Positions 40,243-60,904 of a stretch of 64,000 nt of DNA are shown here, piece after piece. Source of the DNA: Myxococcales bacterium (GTDB taxonomy: Bacteria; Myxococcota_A; Polyangia; Polyangiales; Polyangiaceae); the NCBI GenBank assembly GCA_947473045.1, contig CANJCO010000004.1, positions 62,001 to 126,000 of the forward strand, in the 5' to 3' direction. Both the position numbers and the translations under genes were made by a program. The notes beneath the pieces were generated by a model. It worked only from the letters and a program-made list of their open reading frames with translations, made no database searches and was not told the origin of the DNA. Position 1 is the first letter of the stretch, and the number at the start of each line of letters is the position of its first letter.

Positions 40243-42150
40243 TCAGCGCGAAATTGGCGCTCCGTCCGGTCCCTCGCGCCAAGGCTCGCGCGCGGAGAAC
40301 TGCTGCAGCATTCGTTCGGCGACGTTTGCCATCGGGGCGCGCCCCCGTCGCGTGGCCTCTGTCGCGAGCGCGGTTGCCACACCTGTTGCTTCGTTCCACG
40401 CGCCGCCTTCGGCGTACGCAGCGGCGAGCGTCTCGAGCAGGCGCAGCGAGGTCGCGTTCGCGGCGCGGGCATCGGCCGCAGCGCTCTCGCCGATCGCGAT
40501 CGCCTCGGCGCCGTTGCGGGCGCGCGCGTCGGGGGCCGTGCAGAGAATTCGCGCCAGTTTCTCCCGGTTCGCGATGCTCGGATCGCGAGCGACGACGTCG
40601 CGCTGCGCATGAAGGGCCTCGGGCCATTTGCCCTGAGCGATCAGAACGTTTGCCAGGTTTACTTGAACGGTGAGATCGTCGGGCGTCAGCTTCGCAGCGC
40701 GCGAGAAGGCGATCTCGGCGTCGGCGAACCTTCCCTTGCGCGCTTGCACCGTGCCGATGTTGTTGATGCACACTGCGCACGTCGGTCCGTCTTTGGCCGC
40801 CAGCTCGAACTGGACGAGCGCCTCGTCTTCTGCGCCACGCGCAGCGAGCTCGACGCCGTAATGGTAGCGCGCGCGCACGTTGGCCGGGTGCGCGAGCACG
40901 ATGCGGTGAAACAGCTCCTCGACGTTGCGGAACTCGGCATTTCGCTCGATCGTCGTCGCGACGAGCGCGCACGACAGGGTGACGACGATGGCGCCGAACG
41001 CGCGCGGAATTCGCCGCGACGCGAGCTCGATTCCGGCCACCGCGGCGGGGATGAGGAGCGCGAGCGGAACGTACATTCGCCGCTCGGCCAGCAGCTCATT
41101 TTTCAGCGGCAGCAGCGACGAAGTCGGCAGCAGCACGATGAGCCAACCGAGCGCCACGAACGCCATCGGCGGGGCGCGCCGCAGCGCAGCGAGCCCGCTG
41201 ACGACAATGGCTCCGATGAGGGCTGCCGGAAGCGCGACTTCGCGGATCGACCGGGCGACCGGCCAGTCCCAGTAGTCGATGGACAGCCCGCGAGGCCATA
41301 CCGCGAGCTCGAGATACCGCACCAACACGCCGAGCTCGCTCCTCGCGTAGTCGATCGGCCGAAGGTCGACGAAGCCGAACCCCTGCGATGCGTTGCGGCT
41401 GCCAAACGCGACGAGCAGGCCCACCACCGGCAAGAGCGCAAATAGCGTGAGATGGCTCGCGCGGCGCTTGCTCCAGAGTTCGGGCAGCCGCTCGCCCACG
41501 AAGCAGTGATCATACAGCAACACGAGCAGGGGGGCCGTGACGAGCGTCTCCTTCGTCGCCAGGCCGAGGAGGCACGCGAGCGCCATCGCGCCGCGAAGCC
41601 TGCTCGGATTCGCCGCCGTGACGCTCCGCGCGAACGTCGCGAGCGTGAGCAGATAAAACAGCCCTGCGAGCGACTCGTAGCGGTGAACGACGTAGGTGAC
41701 CGCGCTGGTGTGCAGCGGATGGACGACCCACAAAACCGCGCTCGCGAGGGCGATGCCGCTGGCGCCGCGGGCGAAACGCGCGGAGAGCGCCGGGAGTCGA
41801 AGGGTTGTGCGTACGAGGTCGAAGAGCACGAGCCCCGAGACCGCGTGGATGGCCAGGTTCACGGCGTGCCAGCCGCCCACGCGATAGCCGTTTATGAAAT
41901 AGTTGAGCGCGAACGACAGCTGCGCAAACGGCCGCGAGGCGCCCCGCGCCCAACGCAGCGATCCGAGATCGCGCAGGGCGGCGTTGTCTACGATGTTGGC
42001 GATGTCGTCCCAGAGGAACGGCACATCGAAGGTGCGGTGGTAGGCCACGAACGCGGCCGCGACGATCAGGGCGAACGCGAGCGCGACGCGCTTCGTCGCC
42101 AGCTGGGCGACGGGCTCCTGGGCGATTGCGGGATCGTGTTGCTCGTTCAT
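40243..42150 (-). CDS. TPR membrane protein, TMTC/GT-C-like glycosyltransferase, copy B
   Basis: A 635-residue polytopic protein, paralogous to the gene at 29826-31778. It shares the loop HPLHTSAVTYVVHRYESLA, a first-loop acidic motif (FLWDDIAN) and a C-terminal TPR array (about 430-600; YHYGVELAARGAEDEALVQF). About ten hydrophobic segments precede the array. A membrane glycosyltransferase using lipid-linked sugar is the likeliest role. The two Cys of PTCAVC in the TPR part are unusual. It is downstream of the kinase and membrane ATPase genes on the same strand (51-bp gap), so it may belong to their transcript, or to the sugar locus it borders. Confidence 0.75.
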   Translation of the reverse strand: MNEQHDPAIAQEPVAQLATKRVALAFALIVAAAFVAYHRTFDVPFLWDDIANIVDNAALRDLGSLRWARGASRPFAQLSFALNYFINGYRVGGWHAVNLAIHAVSGLVLFDLVRTTLRLPALSARFARGASGIALASAVLWVVHPLHTSAVTYVVHRYESLAGLFYLLTLATFARSVTAANPSRLRGAMALACLLGLATKETLVTAPLLVLLYDHCFVGERLPELWSKRRASHLTLFALLPVVGLLVAFGSRNASQGFGFVDLRPIDYARSELGVLVRYLELAVWPRGLSIDYWDWPVARSIREVALPAALIGAIVVSGLAALRRAPPMAFVALGWLIVLLPTSSLLPLKNELLAERRMYVPLALLIPAAVAGIELASRRIPRAFGAIVVTLSCALVATTIERNAEFRNVEELFHRIVLAHPANVRARYHYGVELAARGAEDEALVQFELAAKDGPTCAVCINNIGTVQARKGRFADAEIAFSRAAKLTPDDLTVQVNLANVLIAQGKWPEALHAQRDVVARDPSIANREKLARILCTAPDARARNGAEAIAIGESAAADARAANATSLRLLETLAAAYAEGGAWNEATGVATALATEATRRGRAPMANVAERMLQQFSAREPWREGPDGAPISR

Positions 42151-42201
42151 TGCAGGTTGGCGCGGCGATGGCGAAGCGCAGGTGCAGACTGCATGCCGCC
42201 G

Positions 42202-43458
42202 CTACCGGCCGCGCGCGCGTACCGGCTCGGCGGTCGTGGGCCTGACCGGAATCTCTTCGGCCGCGATTCGCGCCCGCACGACCAGCACAGCAAGCATCAG
42301 CGCAGCGAAGGCGAGCAGCAGCGTGGCGGCGAGGTGAAGGCGCTCGGGTGAAGTGGACGCGTGAGCCGCGATCGGCGCAGCAGCCGCTTTCGGCGCCTCG
42401 GCGCGCGGGCGGGGCAGCGGCGGCGGCGGGACGGCGAGCTCGAGATGCATGTCGTCAGCGCGCTTGACCTCGGGTTCGGGCTCCGGATCGGGTTCGATGT
42501 CGAGCGTGAGATCGGTGCGAACGAGCGACAGGGGCGGCGCGTTGTCCTTGGGCTTCGCGGCACCATCGGAGACAACGGCAAGCGCGGGTTCGACGTCGCC
42601 CGTGAAAGGCGCAAGGGCGCTCGCGAACGCTCGCATGTTCGGCGTTCGGTTCGCGGGGTCGCGCCTCAGCGCCGCCTTGAGCACCTCCGCAAGCGCCGCG
42701 GGAGCCGCCGGTGCGCGCTCGAGCAGGCTTGGCGCGTCGTGCTGCGCGATCGTGGAAAACAGCTTCCATACTGTCTCGCCCGTGAAGAGCGGGGCGCCCG
42801 TGAGCGCTTCATACAGAATCACCGCGAGCGACCACACATCACTCCGCTCGTCGGCGGTGCGCGCGCCGTTGACCTGCTCGGGTGACATGTAGCGCGGCGA
42901 GCCCACGAGCACATCGGCGTGGGTAAGCGAGACGGCGTCTGCATCGAGGGGCGCGTCGAGCTTCGCGATGCCGAAATCGATGAGCTTGACGGTCTCGGTG
43001 CCGCGCGCCGAACGCGAGATAAAAATGTTCGAAGGCTTGACGTCGCGATGAATGATTCCCGCTTCGTGCGCTGCGGCGAGACCCTCCGCGGCCTCGCACA
43101 AATACCGGCATGCGAGGCCCACCGGCAGCCGCCCGCGCGCGATTGCGTGCATCAGATCTTCGCCCACCAGGCGCTCCATCACGATGTAGGGCGCCGTTTT
43201 TCCGACGCTGCCGACGTCGAAGATTCGAACGACGTGAGGGCTCTCGAGCTTGGCGAGCGCCTTGGCTTCGCGCCGAAAGCGCGCGAGCAGCGTCTCATCA
43301 GCCAGCCCGCCTTCGAGCAGCAATTTGATCGCGACCGGGCGGTCGAGCTCTTCGTGTCGCCCAAGAAGAACCACGCCTCGCGGCGACCGTCCGAGAACGC
43401 CTTCGATGCGGTACTTGCCGTCGAGCAGATCGCCAATCTGAAGCGGATCTGCGCTCAT
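42202..43458 (-). CDS. Transmembrane Ser/Thr protein kinase
   Basis: A 418-residue Hanks-type kinase. The catalytic domain (about 16-270) has VAIKLLLE with the ATP Lys, HRDVKPSNIF, DFGIAKL and GSPRYMSPEQ. The glycine loop is degenerate: GRSPRGVV lacks the middle Gly, which may lower activity. An Asp/Glu/Pro-rich linker (about 300-360) leads to a single C-terminal membrane helix (about 378-398) and a short tail, so there is no sizeable extracellular sensor. Its ATG overlaps the stop of the upstream ATPase gene (ATGA), implying coupled synthesis and a shared job. Confidence 0.93.
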   Translation of the reverse strand: MSADPLQIGDLLDGKYRIEGVLGRSPRGVVLLGRHEELDRPVAIKLLLEGGLADETLLARFRREAKALAKLESPHVVRIFDVGSVGKTAPYIVMERLVGEDLMHAIARGRLPVGLACRYLCEAAEGLAAAHEAGIIHRDVKPSNIFISRSARGTETVKLIDFGIAKLDAPLDADAVSLTHADVLVGSPRYMSPEQVNGARTADERSDVWSLAVILYEALTGAPLFTGETVWKLFSTIAQHDAPSLLERAPAAPAALAEVLKAALRRDPANRTPNMRAFASALAPFTGDVEPALAVVSDGAAKPKDNAPPLSLVRTDLTLDIEPDPEPEPEVKRADDMHLELAVPPPPLPRPRAEAPKAAAAPIAAHASTSPERLHLAATLLLAFAALMLAVLVVRARIAAEEIPVRPTTAEPVRARGR

Positions 43459-44960
43459 CCGGCCACCCGCATCGCTTCGGCCAGCGTGGTTCGGCCCAGT
43501 CGGGCGTGTTCCACGGCTGCTTCAAACAAGGGAACGGTCCCCTCGGCGATCGCCAGCTTCATGAGCTGGGACGTGTCGAGGTTCTTCTGCAGGGCCTCTC
43601 GCACTGCCGGGGAAATCTCGAGGATTTCGTAGACCGCCGTTCGACCGTTCCAGCCGGTCGAGTCGCAGCGCGGACATCCTCGCGGCGCAAAGAACGACGA
43701 GCCTGTGAGCTTGGCGGCGGCGAGGCGGACCGCCTGCTCGGGCGTCGGTTTGGCGGGTACGCGGCAGTGCGCGCAAAGCTGTTTGACGAGGCGCTGCGAC
43801 ACGCACGCAAGCGACACCGACGCGAGCACGAACGGCTCGATGCCCATCTCGAGGAGGCGGTTGAACACGCCGGCCGCAGAGTCGGCGTGCACCGTCGTGA
43901 GAATGAGATGGCCGGTCAGGCCCGACTGCATGGCGATGTTGGCCGTCTCAGAGTCGCGAATCTCGCCGACCGCGATGACGTTGGGATCCTGCCGCAGCAG
44001 TGCGCGGAAGCCCTGCGCGAAATCGAGACCTGCCTGCCTGTTTACTTTGGTCTGCGCGAACGCGGGCACGACCAGCTCGATGGGGTCTTCGATGGTCGCG
44101 ATTTGAGCGCCGCCGCGGCGGGTTGCGCGAATGTGTCCGAGCGCCGCGTAGATGCTCGTGGTCTTCCCGCTACCGATCGGACCGGTGAAAAAGATGAGGC
44201 CCTGCGGCTTGTCGAGCATCGCCTTGACGCGTTCGAGCAGCGCAGGCGTGAGCCCCACTTCTTCGATCGACGGCAACTTCATTCCCGTGCGGCCTACACG
44301 CAAAACGATTTTCTCGCCGTGTTCGGTCGGGAGGAACGACGCGCGAATCTCTGCGGAGCCGTCGGGTGTCGCGATCGGGAAGTGTCCGTCCTGCGGCCGG
44401 TCGGTGACGTAGAGCACGAGGCGCGTGAGCACTTTGAGCCGGTTGGTAATCGGGCCTTGCAGGTCGGGCGGAAGAAGCCCGACGTCGATCATGTCGCCGT
44501 CGACGCGCAGCGACAGCTGCATGCCGCCGTGGCGCGGGTGCAGGTGGATGTCGCTCGCTTCCGCCCGGATCGCGGCTTGTACGGTCAGCGCAACGAGGGC
44601 CGACGCGTCGAGCTTGTGCATGCGCAGTTTCAGCGCCTCGATCGCGAGCGCGGCTTTGCGGGCTCGGATGGTTCCGGGCGGGAGCGCCGGCAGAAATTCG
44701 TCGACTTCAACGGGCGCTGTTACGGGGCGGCGCCGACTTGCGAGCTCGCATGCGCCAGCCCCCGCGAGCGCGAGGAGCACCACCGGGTGAATGAGCGAGC
44801 CGGCGAGCATGCGCGCCGCGGAGCTCGCGTCGGGAGCCGCAGCATAAAATGGGTAGATGTCGGGCACGACCAGCGCGAGCAGCGCGCACGCCGCGGCGAT
44901 CACGGCGATAAGAGTGAGTGCCCGAGCTGCTTTCTCCACCGGGGGCAGTCTACGCGCCAA
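43455..44960 (-). CDS. Membrane-anchored GspE/PilB-type secretion ATPase
   Basis: A 501-residue hexameric-type AAA ATPase of the type II secretion/type IV pilus extension family. Walker A GPIGSGKTT is near residue 258, the Asp box is TIEDPIELV, Walker B VGEIRDSETANIA and the His box TTVHADSA. The zinc tetracysteine typical of GspE/PilB (CAHC ... CPRC) is present around 397-430. Unusually, the N-terminus is not the normal N1 domain: it has two hydrophobic stretches (about 14-34 and 52-70), suggesting membrane anchoring. The start is TTG with no clear ribosome-binding site; a GTG at codon 8 is an alternative. No pilin or secretin gene is nearby. Confidence 0.9.
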   Translation of the reverse strand: MARRLPPVEKAARALTLIAVIAAACALLALVVPDIYPFYAAAPDASSAARMLAGSLIHPVVLLALAGAGACELASRRRPVTAPVEVDEFLPALPPGTIRARKAALAIEALKLRMHKLDASALVALTVQAAIRAEASDIHLHPRHGGMQLSLRVDGDMIDVGLLPPDLQGPITNRLKVLTRLVLYVTDRPQDGHFPIATPDGSAEIRASFLPTEHGEKIVLRVGRTGMKLPSIEEVGLTPALLERVKAMLDKPQGLIFFTGPIGSGKTTSIYAALGHIRATRRGGAQIATIEDPIELVVPAFAQTKVNRQAGLDFAQGFRALLRQDPNVIAVGEIRDSETANIAMQSGLTGHLILTTVHADSAAGVFNRLLEMGIEPFVLASVSLACVSQRLVKQLCAHCRVPAKPTPEQAVRLAAAKLTGSSFFAPRGCPRCDSTGWNGRTAVYEILEISPAVREALQKNLDTSQLMKLAIAEGTVPLFEAAVEHARLGRTTLAEAMRVAG

Positions 44961-49317: not shown

Positions 49318-52098
49318 ATGTTATCGATTCGAGAGGTGAGCAAGCAGCTCGCGTCGGCCTCGTGGGCGACCGACGGCGCGCGCACGGCGTTCGTCGCCGA
49401 GGCGTGTCCGCTTGGCCCGGCCGATGTGCTCAAGGCGCTGTCTGCAGTCGTGGAGGGTGGTGCGCGCTCAGACGGCGGCAATCACGCGGCTCGATGCGCC
49501 GCTTTCTCAGCCATTGTCGAGAGCTCCGCCGATCCTGACCTCTTCGTTCCGCTCGTCCGTGCCCTGCGAACGGCCGACGCGCTGCTGCGCGCGCACCTGG
49601 TTGCGCTGCTGCCGAAGGTCAACGCGTCGAGCGGGCACGCTCACCTGTGTCAGGCGCTCGGAGACGAGGCGCCGGAGGTGCGCGGCGCGGCCGCGGCGGT
49701 GCTGCGTCAAGTGGGAGGTCGATCCGCGTTTGAGATGATCGTCGAGCTGGCGCGCCAGCCCCTGTTTCCCGGTCGCATCGATGCCCTCGACGTCTTCGCG
49801 TTGAAGGCCGGCTCGCTCGCGGTCCCGCTCTTTGAAGCGGTGATCGATGCGGGCACTCCCCATGAGGTCGTGCACGCGCTCTCCTATATCGGCGACGCGC
49901 GACTGATGTCGAAGAACCTCGGTGAGGCTGTCGCGCTCGCGACCAAGGTGCTCGCGCGCCAGACGGCGGCCGAGTCGGCCGATGCGGCCGTGCTTGCCCT
50001 CGCAAACCTGGCGAGCGAAGACGAATTTTTCCTTGTCATGGGCGACAGGCTCGACAACCCTCCGCCGAATCTCGCGCGCGCGCTCGTCGCGGGCATGCAG
50101 CGGTTCAGCTCAAAGCGCGTGATCGACTACCTGCTCGAGCGCTTCCGCGCTGGCCCAAACGTGGTGCGCCATGCCGTCCTCGAGGCTGCGCGGGCCATCG
50201 CGAGCGAGCAGTCGATTCCCATCATCATCGAGGCGCTGCAGTTCGGTAGCCTCGTCGTCCGAACGCGGGCGGCCGAGATCATCGCCGAGCTTGGCAGGAG
50301 CGAGAAGGTCGATCCCGCTCGCTGCATCATTTGGCTGTTGCGCAGTCGCGACGTCAACGTGCGGCGCTTGGCGATCGAGATCGCCAAGCAGGTCGGTGAT
50401 CGCCGCGGTGACCTCGGTCCGAGCTTGCTCAAATACCTCCGCGACGAGGACTGGTGGGTGCGCGAGCGAACGGTAGACGCGCTCATCGAGACGATGGGCA
50501 CGGGCCTGACGCGCCACCTCGCCGAGTTTCTCAACGACGACTCCGACGTGGTTCGCCGCTGGGCGGTCGGGAGCCTTCGGCGCGTAAAAGACCCAAAATC
50601 ACTCGGCGCGCTGGTGCGCGTCGCCGGCGACGACGCCGACTGGTGGGTGCGCGAGCAGGCGATCGAGGCCATCGGCGAGCTCGGCGATTCGCGCGCCGTT
50701 CCTCACGTGATTGACCTGCTCCGCCGATTGCCCGACGCTCGCATTTCGTGCATCTCGGCGCTCGGCGCCCTCAAGGGGGCCGCCGCGTGCTCCGACGTCG
50801 CGCCGCTCGTGGTCGACCCTGACGCCGATGTTCGCCTCGCCGCGCTCGCCTTCGTCGCGTCGCTCGACGCATCGGCGGAGCTCGCGTGGGTCAAGCGCGC
50901 CGAGAGCGACGCAGACCCGCGCGTGCAGCGCGCCGCGCTCGAGCTCCTCGCGCGCTGGAAGGTCCCGGCCGCCGTGCTGCCGGGCGACGATCGCATCAAG
51001 AGCCTGCTCGACCGCCTCCTCGCAGCTGTGGCAAGGGCAGAGGCCGACGACCTTTTGATCGCAGTCGGTCAGCGCCCGTACGTCAAGCGTATGGGCAAGA
51101 TGGTCGCGCTCTCGGAGGCGCTGTTCACCGAAGATCAGGTGAAAGGCATTCTGCTTCCGCAGCTCACGATCGCCCAGAAGACGCAGCTGGAGGCCCTGCG
51201 CGATGTCGATTTCTCCTATGAGGTGAAGTCGCTCGGACTGCGCTTTCGCGCGAACGTATTTCAGCAGATGAAGGGCCTGTCGGCCGTATTTCGAATCGTC
51301 AAAAACACCATCCCCGAGCTCGGAACGCTCGGTCTTCCGCCCGTGGTTCGCAGCTTTGCTGATTTTAAAAATGGCCTCGTCATCGTCGGCGGACCGACGG
51401 GGTCAGGCAAGTCGACCACGCTCGCGGCGCTCGTCGACTTCGTCAATCGCAATCAATCGGAACATATCATTACGATAGAAGACCCGATTGAGGTCGTTCA
51501 CGGCACCAAGCGGTGCCTCATCAATCAGCGCGAGGTGGGCGCGCACACAACGTCGTTCGAGGCGGCGCTGCGGCGTACGCTGCGGCAGGATCCGGACGTG
51601 ATTCTGATAGGCGAAATGCGCGATCTGGAGACCATATCGTTCGCGGTGACGGCGGCCGAGACCGGCCACCTCGTCTTCGGAACGCTGCATACGGCTTCGG
51701 CCGACACGAGCATCGACCGCCTCATCGATACGTTTCCGCCTGGGCAGCAGCCGCAGGTTCGCGCGATGCTCTCAGAGAGCCTGCGCGCCGTGCTTTGCCA
51801 GCACCTGCTCAGGCGCAAAGACGGCCCCGGCCGGGTCGTCGCCGCCGAAGTGATGCTGGGCAACGCCGCCGTGTCCAACCTGATTCGCAAGGGAAAGTGC
51901 TTTCAGATACCCCAGGTCATCACCACCGGTCGTGAGCTTGGAATGCAGAGTATGGATATGGACCTGTCGCGCCTCGTTCGGGAGGGCGTCGTCGACCTCG
52001 ATGATGCGTACGCGAAGGCCGTCGACAAAAAGGCATTTGAGGCCATGGTAGGCGACGGCATCGGCGCCAATGGCGCCTTACCGCCAGTGCCCTCGTGA
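49318..52098 (+). CDS. HEAT-repeat/PilT fusion ATPase
   Basis: A 926-residue protein with an unusual architecture. Residues ~1-560 are alpha-helical repeats of HEAT type (for example EVRGAAAAVLRQVG, DWWVRERTVDALIE, DWWVREQAIEAIGE). The C-terminal ~350 residues are a PilT/PilU-type ATPase: N-terminal PilT domain, Walker A GGPTGSGKST (about 692-701), Asp box ITIEDPIEVVH, Walker B LIGEMRDLETI, His box GTLHT and a NLIRKGK motif near the end matching AIRNLIRE of PilT. PilT alone is ~350 residues, so the HEAT part is an added interaction module. The ATG at 49318 has GGGAGG upstream. It is followed after 12 bp by a second PilT gene. Confidence 0.92.
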   Translation: MLSIREVSKQLASASWATDGARTAFVAEACPLGPADVLKALSAVVEGGARSDGGNHAARCAAFSAIVESSADPDLFVPLVRALRTADALLRAHLVALLPKVNASSGHAHLCQALGDEAPEVRGAAAAVLRQVGGRSAFEMIVELARQPLFPGRIDALDVFALKAGSLAVPLFEAVIDAGTPHEVVHALSYIGDARLMSKNLGEAVALATKVLARQTAAESADAAVLALANLASEDEFFLVMGDRLDNPPPNLARALVAGMQRFSSKRVIDYLLERFRAGPNVVRHAVLEAARAIASEQSIPIIIEALQFGSLVVRTRAAEIIAELGRSEKVDPARCIIWLLRSRDVNVRRLAIEIAKQVGDRRGDLGPSLLKYLRDEDWWVRERTVDALIETMGTGLTRHLAEFLNDDSDVVRRWAVGSLRRVKDPKSLGALVRVAGDDADWWVREQAIEAIGELGDSRAVPHVIDLLRRLPDARISCISALGALKGAAACSDVAPLVVDPDADVRLAALAFVASLDASAELAWVKRAESDADPRVQRAALELLARWKVPAAVLPGDDRIKSLLDRLLAAVARAEADDLLIAVGQRPYVKRMGKMVALSEALFTEDQVKGILLPQLTIAQKTQLEALRDVDFSYEVKSLGLRFRANVFQQMKGLSAVFRIVKNTIPELGTLGLPPVVRSFADFKNGLVIVGGPTGSGKSTTLAALVDFVNRNQSEHIITIEDPIEVVHGTKRCLINQREVGAHTTSFEAALRRTLRQDPDVILIGEMRDLETISFAVTAAETGHLVFGTLHTASADTSIDRLIDTFPPGQQPQVRAMLSESLRAVLCQHLLRRKDGPGRVVAAEVMLGNAAVSNLIRKGKCFQIPQVITTGRELGMQSMDMDLSRLVREGVVDLDDAYAKAVDKKAFEAMVGDGIGANGALPPVPS

Positions 52099-52110
52099 CC
52101 GGAGCATTTC

Positions 52111-53190
52111 ATGGCGCGCATTGACTCTTTCCTTCGGCTCGTCGTCGAGCAGCACGCGAGCGACCTGCACTTTCATGCCGGCAGCGTGCCCATCATCCGA
52201 CACGACGGAGACCTCGTGCCGCTCCCGTTCCGAGTGCTGTCGGACGTCGAGGCGAGGCGGTTTCTCACCGAAATCATGACTCCCGACCAGGTCGCCGCGT
52301 TCGACGCCGACCGCGAGCTCGATTTCGCCTACGTGCTCGCTGGAGTCGGCCGATTTCGCGTGAACGCGCTCGTTCAGTCGCGCGGAGTCGGCGCTGTTTT
52401 TCGCATCATTCAAGCGAAAGTTCCGACGCTCGACGAGCTCGGCCTGCCGCCGGTGGTGAAGAAAATCGCCGCGTACAGCAGCGGGCTCGTGCTGATTACA
52501 GGGCCGACCGGATCGGGAAAGACGACTTCGCTCGCGGCCATCGTCAACGAGATCAACCTCACCGCCCGGCGGCACATCATCACCATCGAAGACCCGATTG
52601 AAGTCGTGCACGCCCCGATGAAAAGCGTTGTCACCCAGCGCCAGGTCGGAGCGCACACTGACTCATTTTCGTCGGCGTTGCGTTCCGCGCTTCGCGAGGC
52701 GCCCGACGTCCTGGTGGTCGGCGAAATGCGCGACCTCGAGACGGTGAGTCTCGCCCTCGCGGCTGCCGAGACTGGCGTGCTCGTCTTCGGCACGCTCCAC
52801 ACGGGGTCCGCGCGCAAATCGATTGACCGCATTCTCGATATGCATCCTGAGTCGGTGCGTGAACAGGTCCGCGGCGTGCTCTCTGTGATGCTTAAAGCGG
52901 TAGTCTCGCAGCACCTCTGCAAACGCGCGTCGGGTGATGGGCGCATCGCCGCCTTCGAGGTCCTCCTGCAGAGCTACGGGGTGTCTCACATGATTCGCGA
53001 CAACAAGGTTCACCAGCTCGACGCATTCATGCAATCGACGGAAAACGCGGGCGACGCGATGCAGACGCTCGACGGCTGCCTGCTGTCTCACGTGCGCGCG
53101 GGACTGATTGAGGTCGACGAGGCTGTTCGCGTCGCCAATTATCCCGATACGCTGCGGCGCATCTTATCCGAGTTGCCGCCGCAGGAGTAA
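52111..53190 (+). CDS. pilT: PilT/PilU-type twitching ATPase
   Basis: A 359-residue hexameric ATPase of the type IV pilus retraction family. The N-terminal PilT domain has HASDLHFHAGSVPIIRHDGD. The core has Walker A GPTGSGKTT, Asp box TIEDPIEVVH, Walker B VVGEMRDLETVSLA and His box GTLHTGSA, and the C-terminal motif MIRDNKVHQL corresponds to AIRNLIRDGKxHQ. All catalytic features look intact. The gene lies 12 bp after the HEAT-PilT fusion with GGAG 7 nt before the ATG, and 69 bp before a kinase gene, making a three-gene set. Whether it acts on a pilus or another machine is open, as no pilin gene is near. Confidence 0.93.
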   Translation: MARIDSFLRLVVEQHASDLHFHAGSVPIIRHDGDLVPLPFRVLSDVEARRFLTEIMTPDQVAAFDADRELDFAYVLAGVGRFRVNALVQSRGVGAVFRIIQAKVPTLDELGLPPVVKKIAAYSSGLVLITGPTGSGKTTSLAAIVNEINLTARRHIITIEDPIEVVHAPMKSVVTQRQVGAHTDSFSSALRSALREAPDVLVVGEMRDLETVSLALAAAETGVLVFGTLHTGSARKSIDRILDMHPESVREQVRGVLSVMLKAVVSQHLCKRASGDGRIAAFEVLLQSYGVSHMIRDNKVHQLDAFMQSTENAGDAMQTLDGCLLSHVRAGLIEVDEAVRVANYPDTLRRILSELPPQE

Positions 53191-53259
53191 CGCGCGAGGT
53201 CGAAGGCGGGGCGCCTCCGAGCGCGCCGCAGGTTCACCTTTTTTTACGGAGCCACGCGC

Positions 53260-55293
53260 TTGTCAGACGATACCCGAAATCAGGTCCTCGCAGCGGCCAC
53301 CCGTCTCGCTGGCGAAGGTAAGGTCGACGCCGCCGTCAGCGCGCTGCTGAGCGTCTCGGCGATCGACGAGGCGGCCACGCTGCTGGTGGGCGTTCGTCGA
53401 TTCGCGGACGCCGCGCGAATCATCATGGAGGCGCTCGCGCCGGTGCTCGACGCGCGGCGGCCCCCCGACGCCAGGCAGCGCCAGTTGCTCCAAAAGGCTG
53501 CGGTGTGCTTCGCGAACAACGGCGACGCGGACGTCGCTGTGGAGCTGTATCTCGGTATCGGCGAGCCGCATCGGGCGATGCAGGTGCTCGAGCGCGCGGG
53601 CGATGCGGTGGGCGCCGCCCGACTCGAGGCCGACCTTGGTCAGGGACGCCGCGTCGCAGCCGCGAGCCTCGCGGGGATTGCAGCGCGCGCCGTGACGATG
53701 GCGGCGGCCCAGCGTCTCGAGCAGGAGGGCAAGCTCCGCCCCGCGCTCGCGGCGTTCATGCAGCTTCGCCGTCACGCCGACGCGGCGCGCGTCGCCCGCA
53801 AATTGGGAGATTTGTCTCAAGCGGCGCACCTGTATCTGGGAGGCGCGATGCCTTTCGAGGCCGCCGGCTGCTATTTCGAGGCGGGAGACTCCGGAAAGTG
53901 CCTCGATGCGCTCGTGCACGTGCCGCGCGAAGATCCGCGCTACCGTGACGCTTGCGTGCAGGCTGTGCGCATCGCGAGCGAGCTCGGCGTGCTCGACTTC
54001 GCGCTCGACCAGTTTCTCGCGCCCTTTGCCCGATCCAACCCGCGCGGCGACGCAGAGTTCGCGGCGTTTTCAGCGCTCGGTCGCATGTACGAAGCGCACG
54101 ACTTCGGCGACAGCGCGCGACGGCTGTACGAAAAACTGTGCGCCGTGTTTCCGAGCGCGTCCGAGCCTCGCGAGCGCCTCGCTGCGCTCAGTGAGCGGGC
54201 GCGCGGCGGTGACATGGCCTTCGCGAAGATCGTTCGCGAAGACGCCTCTTTCATGGGCGATGAACTGCGTCGTCCGCGTCGAGTCCCGACTTCGGGCGGC
54301 GATGCCCTGCCCGAATTGCCCGACCTTCCCGAGCTCCCGCCGCTCGGCTTGTCATCCGTCGCGCGCAGTCCGCTCGCGGCCACTCTGCCGCAAGTCGAGG
54401 CCCCGGCCCGCTCGCCAGCGCCACCGCCCGCGGCGATTCACGCAGCGGCCTCCGACGAGAGCGCGCAGGTCGCCGTGGGCGAGCTGATCGCAGGTCGCTA
54501 CCGCGTCGACCGCGTGCTCGGGCAGGGCGGGATGGCGGTGGTCTACCTCGCGAGCGACGTCGAGCTCGGCGAGCCCATCGCGATCAAGCTGTTCAACTCG
54601 GTGGTCACTGACGAAGGCCTCATCGCGCGCTTCAAGCAGGAGCTTAGTCTCTCGCGGCGCCTCGCCCATCCCAACATCGTGCGCATGTACGACATCGGCA
54701 CGCACCGCGGCCGGAAGTTCATCACGATGGAGCTGCTGCGGGGCCACGCGCTCGCCGATTACATGGGCGCTCCGGTCGATCTTGTCAGCGGGCTTTGGTA
54801 TCTCGTTCAGGCCTGCGAGGGGCTCGCGGCCGCGCACGCGCAGGGCATCATTCATCGCGATATCAAGCCCGACAATTTCTTCGTCACAGACGACGGCGTG
54901 CTCAAGGTCGTCGATTTCGGCATCGCGAAGGCCGGCGCCAGCGAAGGACTGACGCAGGCTGGCTTCATGGCGGGTACGCCGGGCTACATGTCGCCCGAGC
55001 AGATCAACAACTTCACCGCCGTGACGCACCTGTCTGACATCTATGCGCTCGGCATCGTGGCGTTCGAAATGTTCACCGGAGCCGTGCCGTTTGGCGGCGA
55101 TGACCTGATGCCGATTCTCATGGCCCACCTGAACGAGGTGCCGCCCACGCCGACTTCGCGCGGGGCAAAAATCTCTGCGGAGCTCGAGGCGGTCATCTTG
55201 CGCCTCCTCGAAAAAGATCCGGCGCGCCGGATACAGAGCTGCGCCGAACTTGGGGCCATTTTTCGCCGGATCGCGGGCCTGGTGCGCGCCTGA
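53260..55293 (+). CDS. Ser/Thr protein kinase with N-terminal TPR-like repeats
   Basis: A 677-residue protein with reversed layout: residues ~1-320 are alpha-helical repeats (AAVSALLSVSAIDEAATLLV, AVELYLGIGEPHRAMQVLER), a Pro-rich linker follows (~345-405), and the kinase domain is at the C-terminus (~412-677). It has GQGGMAVVYLAS, AIKLFN with the ATP Lys, HRDIKPDNFF, DFGIAKA and GTPGYMSPEQ, so it should be active. No membrane helix is seen, so it is cytoplasmic. The start is TTG at 53260 with ACGGAG 8 nt before. Its position behind two PilT-type ATPases suggests it regulates them or senses their state (inference). Confidence 0.92.
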   Translation: MSDDTRNQVLAAATRLAGEGKVDAAVSALLSVSAIDEAATLLVGVRRFADAARIIMEALAPVLDARRPPDARQRQLLQKAAVCFANNGDADVAVELYLGIGEPHRAMQVLERAGDAVGAARLEADLGQGRRVAAASLAGIAARAVTMAAAQRLEQEGKLRPALAAFMQLRRHADAARVARKLGDLSQAAHLYLGGAMPFEAAGCYFEAGDSGKCLDALVHVPREDPRYRDACVQAVRIASELGVLDFALDQFLAPFARSNPRGDAEFAAFSALGRMYEAHDFGDSARRLYEKLCAVFPSASEPRERLAALSERARGGDMAFAKIVREDASFMGDELRRPRRVPTSGGDALPELPDLPELPPLGLSSVARSPLAATLPQVEAPARSPAPPPAAIHAAASDESAQVAVGELIAGRYRVDRVLGQGGMAVVYLASDVELGEPIAIKLFNSVVTDEGLIARFKQELSLSRRLAHPNIVRMYDIGTHRGRKFITMELLRGHALADYMGAPVDLVSGLWYLVQACEGLAAAHAQGIIHRDIKPDNFFVTDDGVLKVVDFGIAKAGASEGLTQAGFMAGTPGYMSPEQINNFTAVTHLSDIYALGIVAFEMFTGAVPFGGDDLMPILMAHLNEVPPTPTSRGAKISAELEAVILRLLEKDPARRIQSCAELGAIFRRIAGLVRA

Positions 55294-57568: not shown

Positions 57569-60500
57569 TCAGAGCAGGCCTTTGAAAATGCCTAGTTTGT
57601 GGGCGAATCGCACGTCGCCATCGACGCGCAGATCGCCATGTTGGTAGAGGTCCTGCGCCGAACGGGCGCCGGAGACGAGCGCGACTAGATGCTCGTCGGC
57701 CAAGGTGAAAGTGGCGGCGGCTTCGGTGGCTGCGCCCAGCGAGACCGAGCCCTTGCCGGCCGCGCCTCCCACCACCCAGCGCTGGTCGCCAATCGCGAAC
57801 GCGAGCGCTGCGCCGAGCTCGTCGGCCAGGTTGGGCTGCAAGGTGAGCAGCTTGCCGAGGGCAGCGAAAATCGCCGGAGCCTGCGCCGGTCCGGCAGGCG
57901 CGGCGGCCGCCTTCGGTGCGTCGGGCATGGGCAAGAGCGACTTTTTGACCGCGATCGCTTTCGCGGCGGCGGCGCGATCGATCTTCTTCAGGAAGTCGAG
58001 CTTCTGGCTCGCCATGATGTCGCCCGAGATGCGCAGCCTCTTGTCCATGAAGAGCTTCATCGGATCGGCCTTGCCGCTCGTCATCGCGATGAAGTCGTCG
58101 TCGGACAGCTCGAGGGTGCAGCCGGGCTTCGCGGTCTCGCCCGCCGAGACCTTGCCGTCCTTGAGGTCGACCGTCCAGCTCGAGTCGGGCGCCGTGAGCT
58201 TGAACAGGTAGACAACGCCGATCTTCGTGGCCTCGGCCCTGTTCTTTTCAATGTAATCTTCGATGGCCACGAACGTGTCCGCGGACGCGCTCGCGACCTC
58301 GGCCGAGGGCGGTGTGGCCGCTGCCGAGGGGGCCCCGCCAGCGCCTGCGCGCGCCTTCGCCGCCGCGAGCACAATCGCGGGATCGATCTTCTTCAGGAAC
58401 TCGAGCTTCTGGCTGGCCATGAGGTCGCCGGAGATGCGCAACTTCTTGTCCATGAAGAGTTTCATGGGGTCAGCCTTGCCGGTGCACATCGCCATGAAGT
58501 CGGCATCGGACAGCTCGAGCGTGCACTGCGGAGGCGTGGCCGAGCCGGCCGCGACGCCGCCGGCCTTCGTGTCGAGCGTCCACACGCTCTCGGGCGAAGT
58601 GAGCTTGAACTGGTAGACGACGCCGATTCTCGTGACGGCTTCGGCGTTCGCTTCAAAATAATTTTTGATGCCCGCGAACACGTCCGCGCTGATGGGCTCG
58701 CTCGACTGCGGCGCTGCGGCAGGGGCCGCGATCGCAGCCGCTACCGGCTTGGCTTTGGCGCGCGGCTTGGGGATTTCCGCGTACAACTCGATGGCCGCGT
58801 TGGAGATCACGACCTTGTCGCGCTCGACCACCTTCGTGCGGAACACGATCCGGCTCTCCGACTCCTTCCACATTTCGGTCACGAGCGTCTCGCCGGGGAA
58901 CACGCTCTCGGCGAAGCGCACCTTGATGCTCTTGAAGTAGCGGGGATCAGCGTCCTTGGCGAAGGCCTTGATGACGGCTCGCGCTGCGAAACCGAAGGTG
59001 CACAGGCCGTGCAAGATCGGCTTGTCGAAGCCGAAGCCCTGCGCAAAGCCCGGATCAGCGTGGAGCGGGTTGATGTCGCCCGAGAGGCGGTAGAGCAGCG
59101 CCTGGTTCGCGTGCGTCTTCTCGGTGCTCGTCGCATCGGGGGCCCGCTCAGGCGGCACGTTGACGTCTCCCGACGGGCCGCGCTCGCCGCCCCAGCCGCC
59201 GGCTCCGCGCACGAACGCGGTGAGCTCGTTGTACGCGAGCTCTTCGCCCGTCTCGTCGAAGGTCGTGATGCCGGTGACGACGACGGCGTTCTTGCCCTTG
59301 TCGAAGATGTCTTTGATCTTCACTTCGTGGCGTAGCTTCGCGCGCGCGGGCAGGGGGCGCTTCACCTCGGTGTACTGCTCGCCGTGCAGAATGCGCTCGA
59401 AGCCGTAGTTGAGGCCCGGGGCCTTGTCGCCCTTTTTGAACTGATCGAAAATGACCTTCATCGACGGCACGACCGCGAACGTCGGCAGCACGTGGAAGCC
59501 CTCGCCGCTCATCTCGTAGACGAGTGAGAGGTCCTTGCTGTCGAGGGGATTTTCCGCGGCGCCGACGCCCAGCGCGTAGAGCGACACGTCGCGCTCGTCG
59601 TAGCTCGATTCGGCGACGATCGCGGGCGCGTCGAGCGCCGCGTCCACGTCGATGAGCTCGTTGCCGCCGCGGCTGCGCGTGTCGAGGTTCGACAAAATGG
59701 GCTGCATCGAGCCCTGAATGTCGCTCGGATGCGTGGCCTTGCCGAAGTCGGTGACCTCGCCCCAGGCCTTGCGCAGCGCTTCAGGGGCGATCTCGCGGCC
59801 GAGCTTGAACGTCTTGCCGACGGTGCGCTCCCAGCGGAGCTTGCCGAAATAGCCGCCGCCCACTTCGAACAGGCCTCCCGACTCCTCGCAGCTCTCGTGC
59901 GACAACCACGCGACCAGCGGCGAGACGTACTCCGGCTTGAGCGCGTCGATGAGGTTTTGCGGCAACACCGTCTCGGTCATGCGCGAGCCCGCGATCGGCG
60001 CGATGGCGTTGACGCGGATGTTTCGCTTCTTGCCTTCGATCGCGAGCGTCTGCATGAGACCCACGAGCCCCAGCTTCGCCATCGCGTAGTTCGACTGGCC
60101 GAAGTTGCCGTAAATCCCCGCCGCGCTCGACGTGAAGATGACCCGCCCGTACTCGCGCTCGCGCATGCCGCCGGCGACGTTCCACGCGGCGTGCGTCACG
60201 CGGTAGGCGCCGAGCACGTGCACGCGGTAGATGAGGTCCCAGTCGTCCTGGGTGATTTTCTGAAACGATGTGTCGCGAAGGATGCCGGCGTTGTTGACGA
60301 CCACGTCGATTCGCCCGAACGCGTCCATCGCCGATTGCACGATCTTGTCGCCGTCTTCTACGGAGTCGTAGTTGGCAGTCGCCTCACCGCCGGCCGCCAC
60401 GATCTCCGCGACGACCGCATCGGCGGCTGCCGAGCCCTTGCCGGTGCCGTCGTGGCTGCCGCCAAGATCGTTGACGACGACCTTCGCGCCGCGCGAAGCG

Positions 60501-60589
60501 AGCAGCAGCGCGTGTGATCTGCCGAGGCCGTTTCCGGCGCCTGTGACGATGGCGACGCGGCCTTCAAACCCGAGACGATCGCTGGACAT
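57569..60589 (-). CDS. MFE-2-type multifunctional beta-oxidation enzyme with three SCP2 domains
   Basis: A 1006-residue fusion resembling peroxisomal multifunctional enzyme type 2. Residues ~1-300 are a short-chain dehydrogenase (TGAGNGLGRSHALL; Ser in SSAAGIYG and catalytic YAMAK) for 3-hydroxyacyl-CoA oxidation. Residues ~320-605 are an enoyl-CoA hydratase-2/MaoC pair with the active-site SGDINPLHADP (~505). Three sterol-carrier-protein-2 domains follow at ~630-735, 766-870 and 906-1006; the first two are near-repeats (both with GKADPMKLFMDK). Standard MFE-2 has one SCP2. The ATG at 60589 has GAGGAA upstream. A palindrome 60 bp upstream is a candidate operator. Genes downstream encode thiolase and a patatin-like protein. 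Confidence 0.94.
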   Translation of the reverse strand: MSSDRLGFEGRVAIVTGAGNGLGRSHALLLASRGAKVVVNDLGGSHDGTGKGSAAADAVVAEIVAAGGEATANYDSVEDGDKIVQSAMDAFGRIDVVVNNAGILRDTSFQKITQDDWDLIYRVHVLGAYRVTHAAWNVAGGMREREYGRVIFTSSAAGIYGNFGQSNYAMAKLGLVGLMQTLAIEGKKRNIRVNAIAPIAGSRMTETVLPQNLIDALKPEYVSPLVAWLSHESCEESGGLFEVGGGYFGKLRWERTVGKTFKLGREIAPEALRKAWGEVTDFGKATHPSDIQGSMQPILSNLDTRSRGGNELIDVDAALDAPAIVAESSYDERDVSLYALGVGAAENPLDSKDLSLVYEMSGEGFHVLPTFAVVPSMKVIFDQFKKGDKAPGLNYGFERILHGEQYTEVKRPLPARAKLRHEVKIKDIFDKGKNAVVVTGITTFDETGEELAYNELTAFVRGAGGWGGERGPSGDVNVPPERAPDATSTEKTHANQALLYRLSGDINPLHADPGFAQGFGFDKPILHGLCTFGFAARAVIKAFAKDADPRYFKSIKVRFAESVFPGETLVTEMWKESESRIVFRTKVVERDKVVISNAAIELYAEIPKPRAKAKPVAAAIAAPAAAPQSSEPISADVFAGIKNYFEANAEAVTRIGVVYQFKLTSPESVWTLDTKAGGVAAGSATPPQCTLELSDADFMAMCTGKADPMKLFMDKKLRISGDLMASQKLEFLKKIDPAIVLAAAKARAGAGGAPSAAATPPSAEVASASADTFVAIEDYIEKNRAEATKIGVVYLFKLTAPDSSWTVDLKDGKVSAGETAKPGCTLELSDDDFIAMTSGKADPMKLFMDKRLRISGDIMASQKLDFLKKIDRAAAAKAIAVKKSLLPMPDAPKAAAAPAGPAQAPAIFAALGKLLTLQPNLADELGAALAFAIGDQRWVVGGAAGKGSVSLGAATEAAATFTLADEHLVALVSGARSAQDLYQHGDLRVDGDVRFAHKLGIFKGLL

Positions 60590-60904
60590 GCTCGTTCCTC
60601 TTCGTTGGTCGTAGCCTCGCCGCTCCAGATTGAGTCGGCGGGCGGCGAAATGCGGTGTGCGAAAGTTTCGCATGCGAAGTATTGGGTGTTTCGCGCGCGC
60701 GTCAACCCCTACATCACCCCCGATACAACCGCGGCCCAACGCGTCCGGATCGGCGATCAGCCAGCGCTGCTGTGGTGCGTCTCGCGACCCTTCGCGAACC
60801 GCCGATTTTCGCGCACAAAGCCTCGCGCCAAAGAGCGATGTCGCGCCCCATCGCGAGCGCGCGGCCGCGACGCGGCTGGCCTGCCGCGTGCAAACTTCGC
60901 TGGC
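60590..60904. other. Divergent intergenic region
   Basis: A 315-bp gap between the MFE-2 gene (minus) and the M15 peptidase-like gene (plus). It contains the inverted repeats at 60658-60694 and no convincing gene. The remainder is GC-rich without clear hairpins or a good sigma-70 promoter. Confidence 0.5.
60658..60694 (-). promoter_or_regulatory. Candidate operator upstream of MFE-2 operon
   Basis: TGCGAAAGTTTCGCA (60658-60672) is a perfect 7-1-7 palindrome. A second, overlapping inverted repeat is formed by GCGAA (60674-60678) and TTCGC (60690-60694). Both lie ~70-105 bp before the MFE-2 start, where a TetR-type lipid-responsive repressor might bind. Confidence 0.45.

Follow-up and report, generated by a model that had tools for sequence, protein, structure and literature searches.

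A HEAT-repeat solenoid fused to a PilT-family motor within a conserved three-gene set of a Myxococcales bacterium

Introduction

In the extension ATPases PilB and GspE, the docking domain lies N-terminal to the PAS-like domain and contacts PilM or GspL. PilT, which has been called the strongest molecular motor known, is followed in V. cholerae and P. aeruginosa by a gene just downstream that encodes PilU, a motor that works only with PilT, and the AIRNLIRE motif was suggested as a site that might serve the coupling with PilU (PMC6762196). Among the PilT sites described in PMC6858323, D31 sits at both subunit interfaces and has its side chain placed in the closed interface; R123 is linked to the conformation required for PilC binding. 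Scattered extra PilT copies are reported for M. xanthus and myxobacteria (PMC6060248).

Here, we describe a PilT-family motor that carries a long HEAT-repeat arm and is encoded together with a second PilT-family motor and a kinase, in a window of 64,000 nucleotides (the whole stretch of DNA analysed) from a Myxococcales genome. We found no published description of this gene set in the openly licensed literature, where nothing relevant was found on a fusion of HEAT repeats with PilT or on a link between PilT and a kinase, no experimental work on any member of the set was found, and no papers were found for the locus tags MXAN_6705 and MXAN_6706. The words 'fused' and 'heat' are absent from the main text of a survey of myxobacterial pili (PMC6060248).

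Results

Architecture of HEAT-PilT

The gene, hereafter HEAT-PilT, comprises the following parts.

49318..52098, plus strand: HEAT-PilT, 926 aa, a HEAT solenoid joined to a PilT-family motor (frame, Pfam/NCBIfam profiles, AlphaFold2 model)
49318..50961, plus strand: HEAT solenoid, residues 1-548, about 16 repeats (HEAT_2, AlphaFold model, alphaRep match)
50335..50661, plus strand (residues 340-448): best-conserved stretch of the solenoid (about residues 340-460), with two DWWVRE-type repeats at 379-383 and 442-446 (74-row profile)
50998..52062, plus strand: PilT-type motor, residues 561-915 (TIGR01420; Z 40.2 to 6ojy_D)

The frame of 926 aa begins with ATG at 49318 and ends with the stop at 52098. 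It extends open upstream to 48775, and this extension overlaps a cytochrome P450 gene (47819-49150); the start at 49318 is sound because, in most relatives, the alignment to HEAT-PilT begins within residues 1-13. The arm matched Pfam HEAT_2 in six stretches with 132.7 bits (gathering score, 27.7; E-value, 5.8e-39), and the motor matched Pfam T2SSE with 160.7 bits and the NCBIfam model TIGR01420 (pilT_fam) with 428.1 bits over residues 564-905, where the curated cut-off is 319.1 bits. The scores against the PilB and GspE models were 121.5 and 135.2 bits versus cut-offs of 675.65 and 630.25 bits, respectively, and the DotB and VirB11 cut-offs were also far above the scores obtained. We placed HEAT-PilT in the PilT/PilU family and not with canonical PilT, because the AIRNLIRE motif reads AVSNLIRK in the protein of the window.

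The AlphaFold2 model, computed as a monomer from 61 relatives (pTM 0.50, with an uncertain placement of the arm against the motor), had a mean pLDDT of 85.3 and consisted of 32 helices over residues 4-546, a weak linker at residues 553-558, and the motor at 563-915; the solenoid blocks mostly reached pLDDT values of 78-95. In structure comparisons with VIA-align, the motor matched Geobacter PilT4 (6ojy_D) with a Z of 40.2 over 350 residues at 2.3 Å, residues 332-549 matched a HEAT-like alphaRep (Z 19.3), and residues 1-485 matched the human 17S U2 snRNP (6y5q, Z 16.6). With HEAT_2 above its gathering score and a paired-helix alpha solenoid, HEAT-PilT is a HEAT repeat protein. The original prediction, made from the letters and their translations, had proposed about 560 residues of HEAT-like repeats before a complete PilT-type motor. 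The HEAT-like solenoid was confirmed by the structure prediction with its 32 helices, but at residues 1-548 it is slightly shorter than claimed; the completeness of the motor was borne out by the TIGR01420 score (428 bits versus 319), the intact catalytic motifs, and the match to PilT4 (Z 40.2).

Over the whole motor, the fold resembles P. aeruginosa PilT (3jvu) and Geobacter PilT4 (6ojx/6ojy), with Z values of 38.5-40.2 and 44-46% identity, and the Walker A motif, Asp box, Walker B motif and both His-box histidines are held in common. HEAT-PilT differs from these proteins in its 546-residue arm, in DDL followed by a hydrophobic residue in place of SDLH, in an AIRNLIRE equivalent that ends in K, and in a residue that is mostly N at the position of R123. 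PilB and GspE belong to the same ATPase superfamily and likewise have an additional domain ahead of the PAS-like one, whereas the extra part of HEAT-PilT is a HEAT solenoid, no N1/MshEN domain was listed for it, and its scores fell far under their cut-offs.

The operon and its surroundings

HEAT-PilT is the first gene of a three-gene set that spans 49318-55293 of the window and includes the following two genes.

52111..53190, plus strand: PilT2, a HEAT-less PilT-family motor of 359 aa, with ASDLH kept and AETGV for AETGH (TIGR01420, 417.6 bits)
53260..55293, plus strand: TPR-kinase, 677 aa, a TPR-like alpha solenoid (residues 3-336) followed by a Hanks-type Ser/Thr kinase (404-676) (Pkinase, E-value 4.1e-45)

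PilT2 begins 12 bp after HEAT-PilT. The adjacency of two PilT-family motor genes resembles the PilT-PilU tandem, but here the first gene is HEAT-armed, the second keeps SDLH and an AIRNLIRE-type E and is without H222, and a kinase gene follows; the likeness to PilU refers to gene adjacency, and the motor tree described below was built without a PilU sequence. The third gene encodes a Hanks-type kinase, as judged from its Pkinase domain and catalytic motifs, and among the 55 kinases found downstream of HEAT-PilT genes, the DFG motif was observed in 55, the HRD-type motif in 51, and the ATP-site Lys motif in 53. The model of the TPR-kinase had a pLDDT of 87.2, and its kinase part was structurally closest to PknA/PknB, from which the protein differs by the TPR-like solenoid N-terminal to the kinase and by its linkage to two PilT motors.

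Within the window, the set is neighboured by the P450 gene upstream and by patatin-like and lipid-metabolism genes downstream on the other strand, and no core pilus genes adjoin it. One large chain containing dehydrogenase, MaoC, and three SCP2 stretches is encoded at 57569-60739 on the minus strand. A second group, located 4 kb upstream of the set (40243-44960, minus strand), also combines an ATPase, a kinase, and a TPR protein: a GspE/PilB-like ATPase of 501 aa (T2SSE, E-value 5e-94), which scores under the cut-offs of GspE and PilB, stands next to a Ser/Thr kinase and a TPR protein. A defence role was set aside, the PADLOC matches being generic kinase and HEAT models.

Conservation and distribution of the gene set

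When 84,980 named genomes were scanned, 285 relatives were obtained, and the following locus counts refer to the best 80 of these 285, all of which are titled MAG. HEAT repeats and motor were encoded in one frame in 75 of the 80, of which 73 were free of internal stops (the exceptions were L081 and L116). The five non-fused relatives were L056, whose motor lies in another frame, L122, which reaches a contig end, and L123-L125, which contain a HEAT protein only. A gene split by a frameshift in relatives, which the original prediction had named as grounds for abandoning the fusion, is thus contradicted by these 75 in-frame loci, and an artefact was ruled out by the same count.

PilT2 was found directly downstream in 71 of the 75 fused loci, or in 71 of the 72 with contig room; in L072, L077, and L100 the contig stops no more than 8 bp further on, and L102 represents a true absence. 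The median gap between the HEAT-PilT stop and PilT2 was 4 bp (69 loci). A kinase followed in 55 of the 75 fused loci, corresponding to 55 of the 60 with room: among the 20 misses, 15 had <1.8 kb of contig remaining, and in the other five (L102, L109, L118, L120, and L121) no kinase was found despite contig room. In G048 and G038 (L034:11857-13161 and L035:11973-13520), the third gene has a TPR-like region and no kinase match, and the kinase may therefore have been lost there. The three genes thus form a conserved unit that travels together and is not a one-off. No conserved secretion gene was seen alongside the set in the relatives examined.

In L120 (3-2705), a HEAT-PilT truncated by the start of the contig continues into PilT2 in one open frame with no stop between them. 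This single chain, which could reflect either a sequencing error or a genuine fusion of two motors, is given as a lead only; a comparable read-through was sought in four other loci, and none was seen there.

In a set of 59 genomes including the host (G000), full-length matches were present in G000, G018, G034 (two), G038, G041, G048, and G058. Across 377 genomes of the phylum, at least 77 places in at least 64 genomes span the junction between HEAT repeats and motor, both counts being lower bounds with five candidates scored per genome. The distribution within the family of the window's organism is patchy, and one other sampled genome of the genus gave a weak PilT-type match only. According to the record titles of the best 80 of 285 relatives, fused loci also occur beyond Myxococcota: among them are loci titled Vicinamibacteria/Acidobacteria (L070, L080-L082, L100, L106, and L107) and candidate division CSSED10-310 (L114, L116, L117, and L119), while single contigs labelled Oligoflexia (L103) and Phycisphaeraceae (L089) may be mis-binned.

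Residues of the two motors

The motifs of the HEAT-PilT motor were compared in a 74-row alignment of the class to which the gene of the window belongs (class A).

51043..51069, plus strand: N-terminal-domain motif ADDLLIAVG, residues 576-584 (canonical ASDLH...G) (74-row alignment)
51388..51420, plus strand: Walker A motif GGPTGSGKSTT, residues 691-701 (K and T in 74/74 each)
51655..51693, plus strand: His box AETGHLVFGTLHT, residues 780-792, with both histidines present (H784 in 74/74, H791 in 73/74)
51865..51897, plus strand: AAVSNLIRKGK, the AIRNLIRE equivalent, residues 850-860, final E changed to K (R857 in 74/74, K858 in 58/74)

The catalytic set is conserved in HEAT-PilT: the Walker A lysine, the Asp-box E and D, and the catalytic E occur in 74 of 74 rows each, and the phosphate-contacting His in 73. 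Further sites are numbered as in P. aeruginosa PilT (S16, H19, D31, R123, H222, and E295; sites as given in PMC6858323). The canonical SDLH motif is missing from HEAT-PilT, with D (67/74) or E (4/74) at S16 and no histidine at H19 (0/74), so that the altered motif ADDLLIAVG, already pointed out in the original prediction, is a trait of the subfamily. The D31 equivalent is L or M in most rows, K stands in place of E295 in 58 of 74, and H222 is kept in 74 of 74, a single V in one table probably reflecting L120, whose frame runs into PilT2. PilT2 of class A showed the reverse arrangement over 68 rows: S16 is retained in 68, H19 in 64, and E or D at 295 in 67 (E in 64), whereas H222, the first histidine of the His box, is never H (V in 55, T in 5, I in 4, S in 3, and L in 1). 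Its catalytic K, E, and phosphate-contacting H are present in 68 of 68 rows each, and most rows of both class A motors have N at the position of R123. At the sequence level, HEAT-PilT and PilT2 thus depart from canonical PilT in complementary ways, which suggests, rather than proves, a specialisation of two co-acting parts.

In the arm, the W and E of the DWWVRE-type repeats are nearly invariant over the 74 rows, and a surface for a shared partner is probably located in this conserved region (residues 340-460).

A second class of HEAT-PilT

A second group of HEAT-PilTs (class B) is shorter, mostly about 820-880 aa, and was followed by a HEAT-less PilT of its own in all 20 loci examined; no kinase match was listed adjoining these 20 pairs, and the genes downstream of them vary. 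Upstream of the class B pair in L154 (808-8109), a 740-aa frame contains more PilT-type matches, giving motors in a row. H222 is likewise missing from PilT2-B (0/20), and HEAT-B keeps SDLH (H in 19/20).

A tree of 59 motors resolved HEAT-A, PilT2-A, HEAT-B, and PilT2-B as four clades with support of 100/99 each; the two PilT2 clades joined at 94/89, and the canonical PilT of the host grouped with Geobacter PilT4. The separate, fully supported clades of HEAT-PilT and PilT2 indicate that the pair is old and has been kept as two distinct parts. When HEAT-A and HEAT-B were constrained together, the AU test gave p = 0.641, the constrained tree being 3.5 log units better; since a single origin of the two classes passes this test, two separate fusions are not claimed. 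Class labels were mixed, through their naming, in a free tree of 105 rows (L146 and L160 are class A, and L154 has extra motors). The simplest history would be one old HEAT-PilT/PilT2 pair that gave rise to two lines, one of which became linked to the TPR-kinase.

PilT complement of the host and association with pilM

The host genome (138 contigs) contains seven pilT_fam matches above the cut-off. One contig (C5) carries a pilB of 792 bits, which exceeds its cut-off, consecutive with a canonical pilT of 485 bits; the HEAT-PilT set is therefore additional to the normal retraction motor. Another tandem PilT pair is encoded on contig C59 (L039:5480-8347), where the first motor has a non-HEAT N-terminal extension of ~200 residues; in the second, as in PilT2, the first histidine of the His box is missing (GVLIF). 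PilT-family motors also end long frames at L038:8733-10952 and L041:8525-12412 (both minus strand), with 739 and 1295 aa, respectively, by mechanical call.

Of the genomes with HEAT-PilT, 24 were tested for pilM, and the gene scored above its cut-off in every one. Among 95 sampled genomes of the phylum, pilM was present in 80, comprising 16 of 16 genomes with HEAT-PilT and 64 of the remaining 79 (Fisher p = 0.067), and no HEAT-PilT was found in the 15 genomes that lack pilM. This co-occurrence is a trend that is weak alone, and it would fit a role of HEAT-PilT in type IVa pili.

Discussion

Taken with a rough probability of 0.5, our main reading is that the set retracts type IVa pili as an accessory tandem motor linked to a kinase, and that the HEAT arm would serve docking or regulation. 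HEAT-PilT and PilT2 would act as an obligate pair, like PilT and PilU, the closest known parallel. The arm, positioned N-terminal to the PAS-like domain, would tether or gate the motor, with a partner that may bind its conserved C-terminal third, and the TPR-kinase may control the two-motor assembly by phosphorylation or by binding.

The rather unlikely reading that the set powers another PilT-dependent envelope machine, for secretion or adhesion, with the HEAT and TPR parts as connectors, draws on its position away from pilus genes, on the canonical PilT already present in the host, and on the GspE/PilB-like ATPase that lies 4 kb upstream beside a separate Ser/Thr kinase and a TPR gene. However, the motor lies well above the pilT_fam cut-off and far under those of GspE, PilB, DotB, and VirB11, pilM was found in 24 of 24 carriers tested, and the relatives show no conserved secretion gene beside the set.

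It is similarly doubtful that HEAT-PilT is a scaffold or sensor joining PilT2 or canonical PilT with the kinase, its ATPase only gating assembly. The arm accounts for more than half of the protein, and the equivalents of S16, H19, D31 (L/M), and E295 (K) are altered, D31 being a subunit-interface residue according to PMC6858323, all of which would suit such a part; a pure scaffold is nevertheless disfavoured because some catalytic motifs should then have been lost, whereas they are kept, including the catalytic Glu in 74 of 74 rows.

An ordinary PilT paralogue, with an arm of no special function and an operon kept by vertical descent only, is very improbable, because although the host has seven PilT-family genes above the cut-off and M. 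xanthus is described as having extra copies (PMC6060248), the gene order is kept across phylum labels, the distribution in the window's own family is patchy, and subfamily-specific residues are preserved in both motors.

Within the reading as a tandem retraction motor, the original prediction of PilT hexamers with six long helical arms may need revision, since a second PilT in the conserved set makes a mixed ring possible, and the number of arms would then not be six. We speculate, while considering it unlikely, that HEAT-PilT and PilT2 alternate in a single mixed hexamer that carries three HEAT arms and is switched by the TPR-kinase; this idea comes from the altered N-domain and intact H222 of HEAT-PilT and the intact N-domain and absent H222 of PilT2. 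Such an alternating ring, if true, would let altered surfaces face altered ones and intact surfaces face intact ones.

The set described here bears on how work is divided and controlled in bacteria with several PilT copies. It equips what may be a retraction engine with a long putative docking arm, a second motor of its own, and a kinase, and it offers a route to ask whether pulling can be under phosphorylation control and whether two motors can share one ring.
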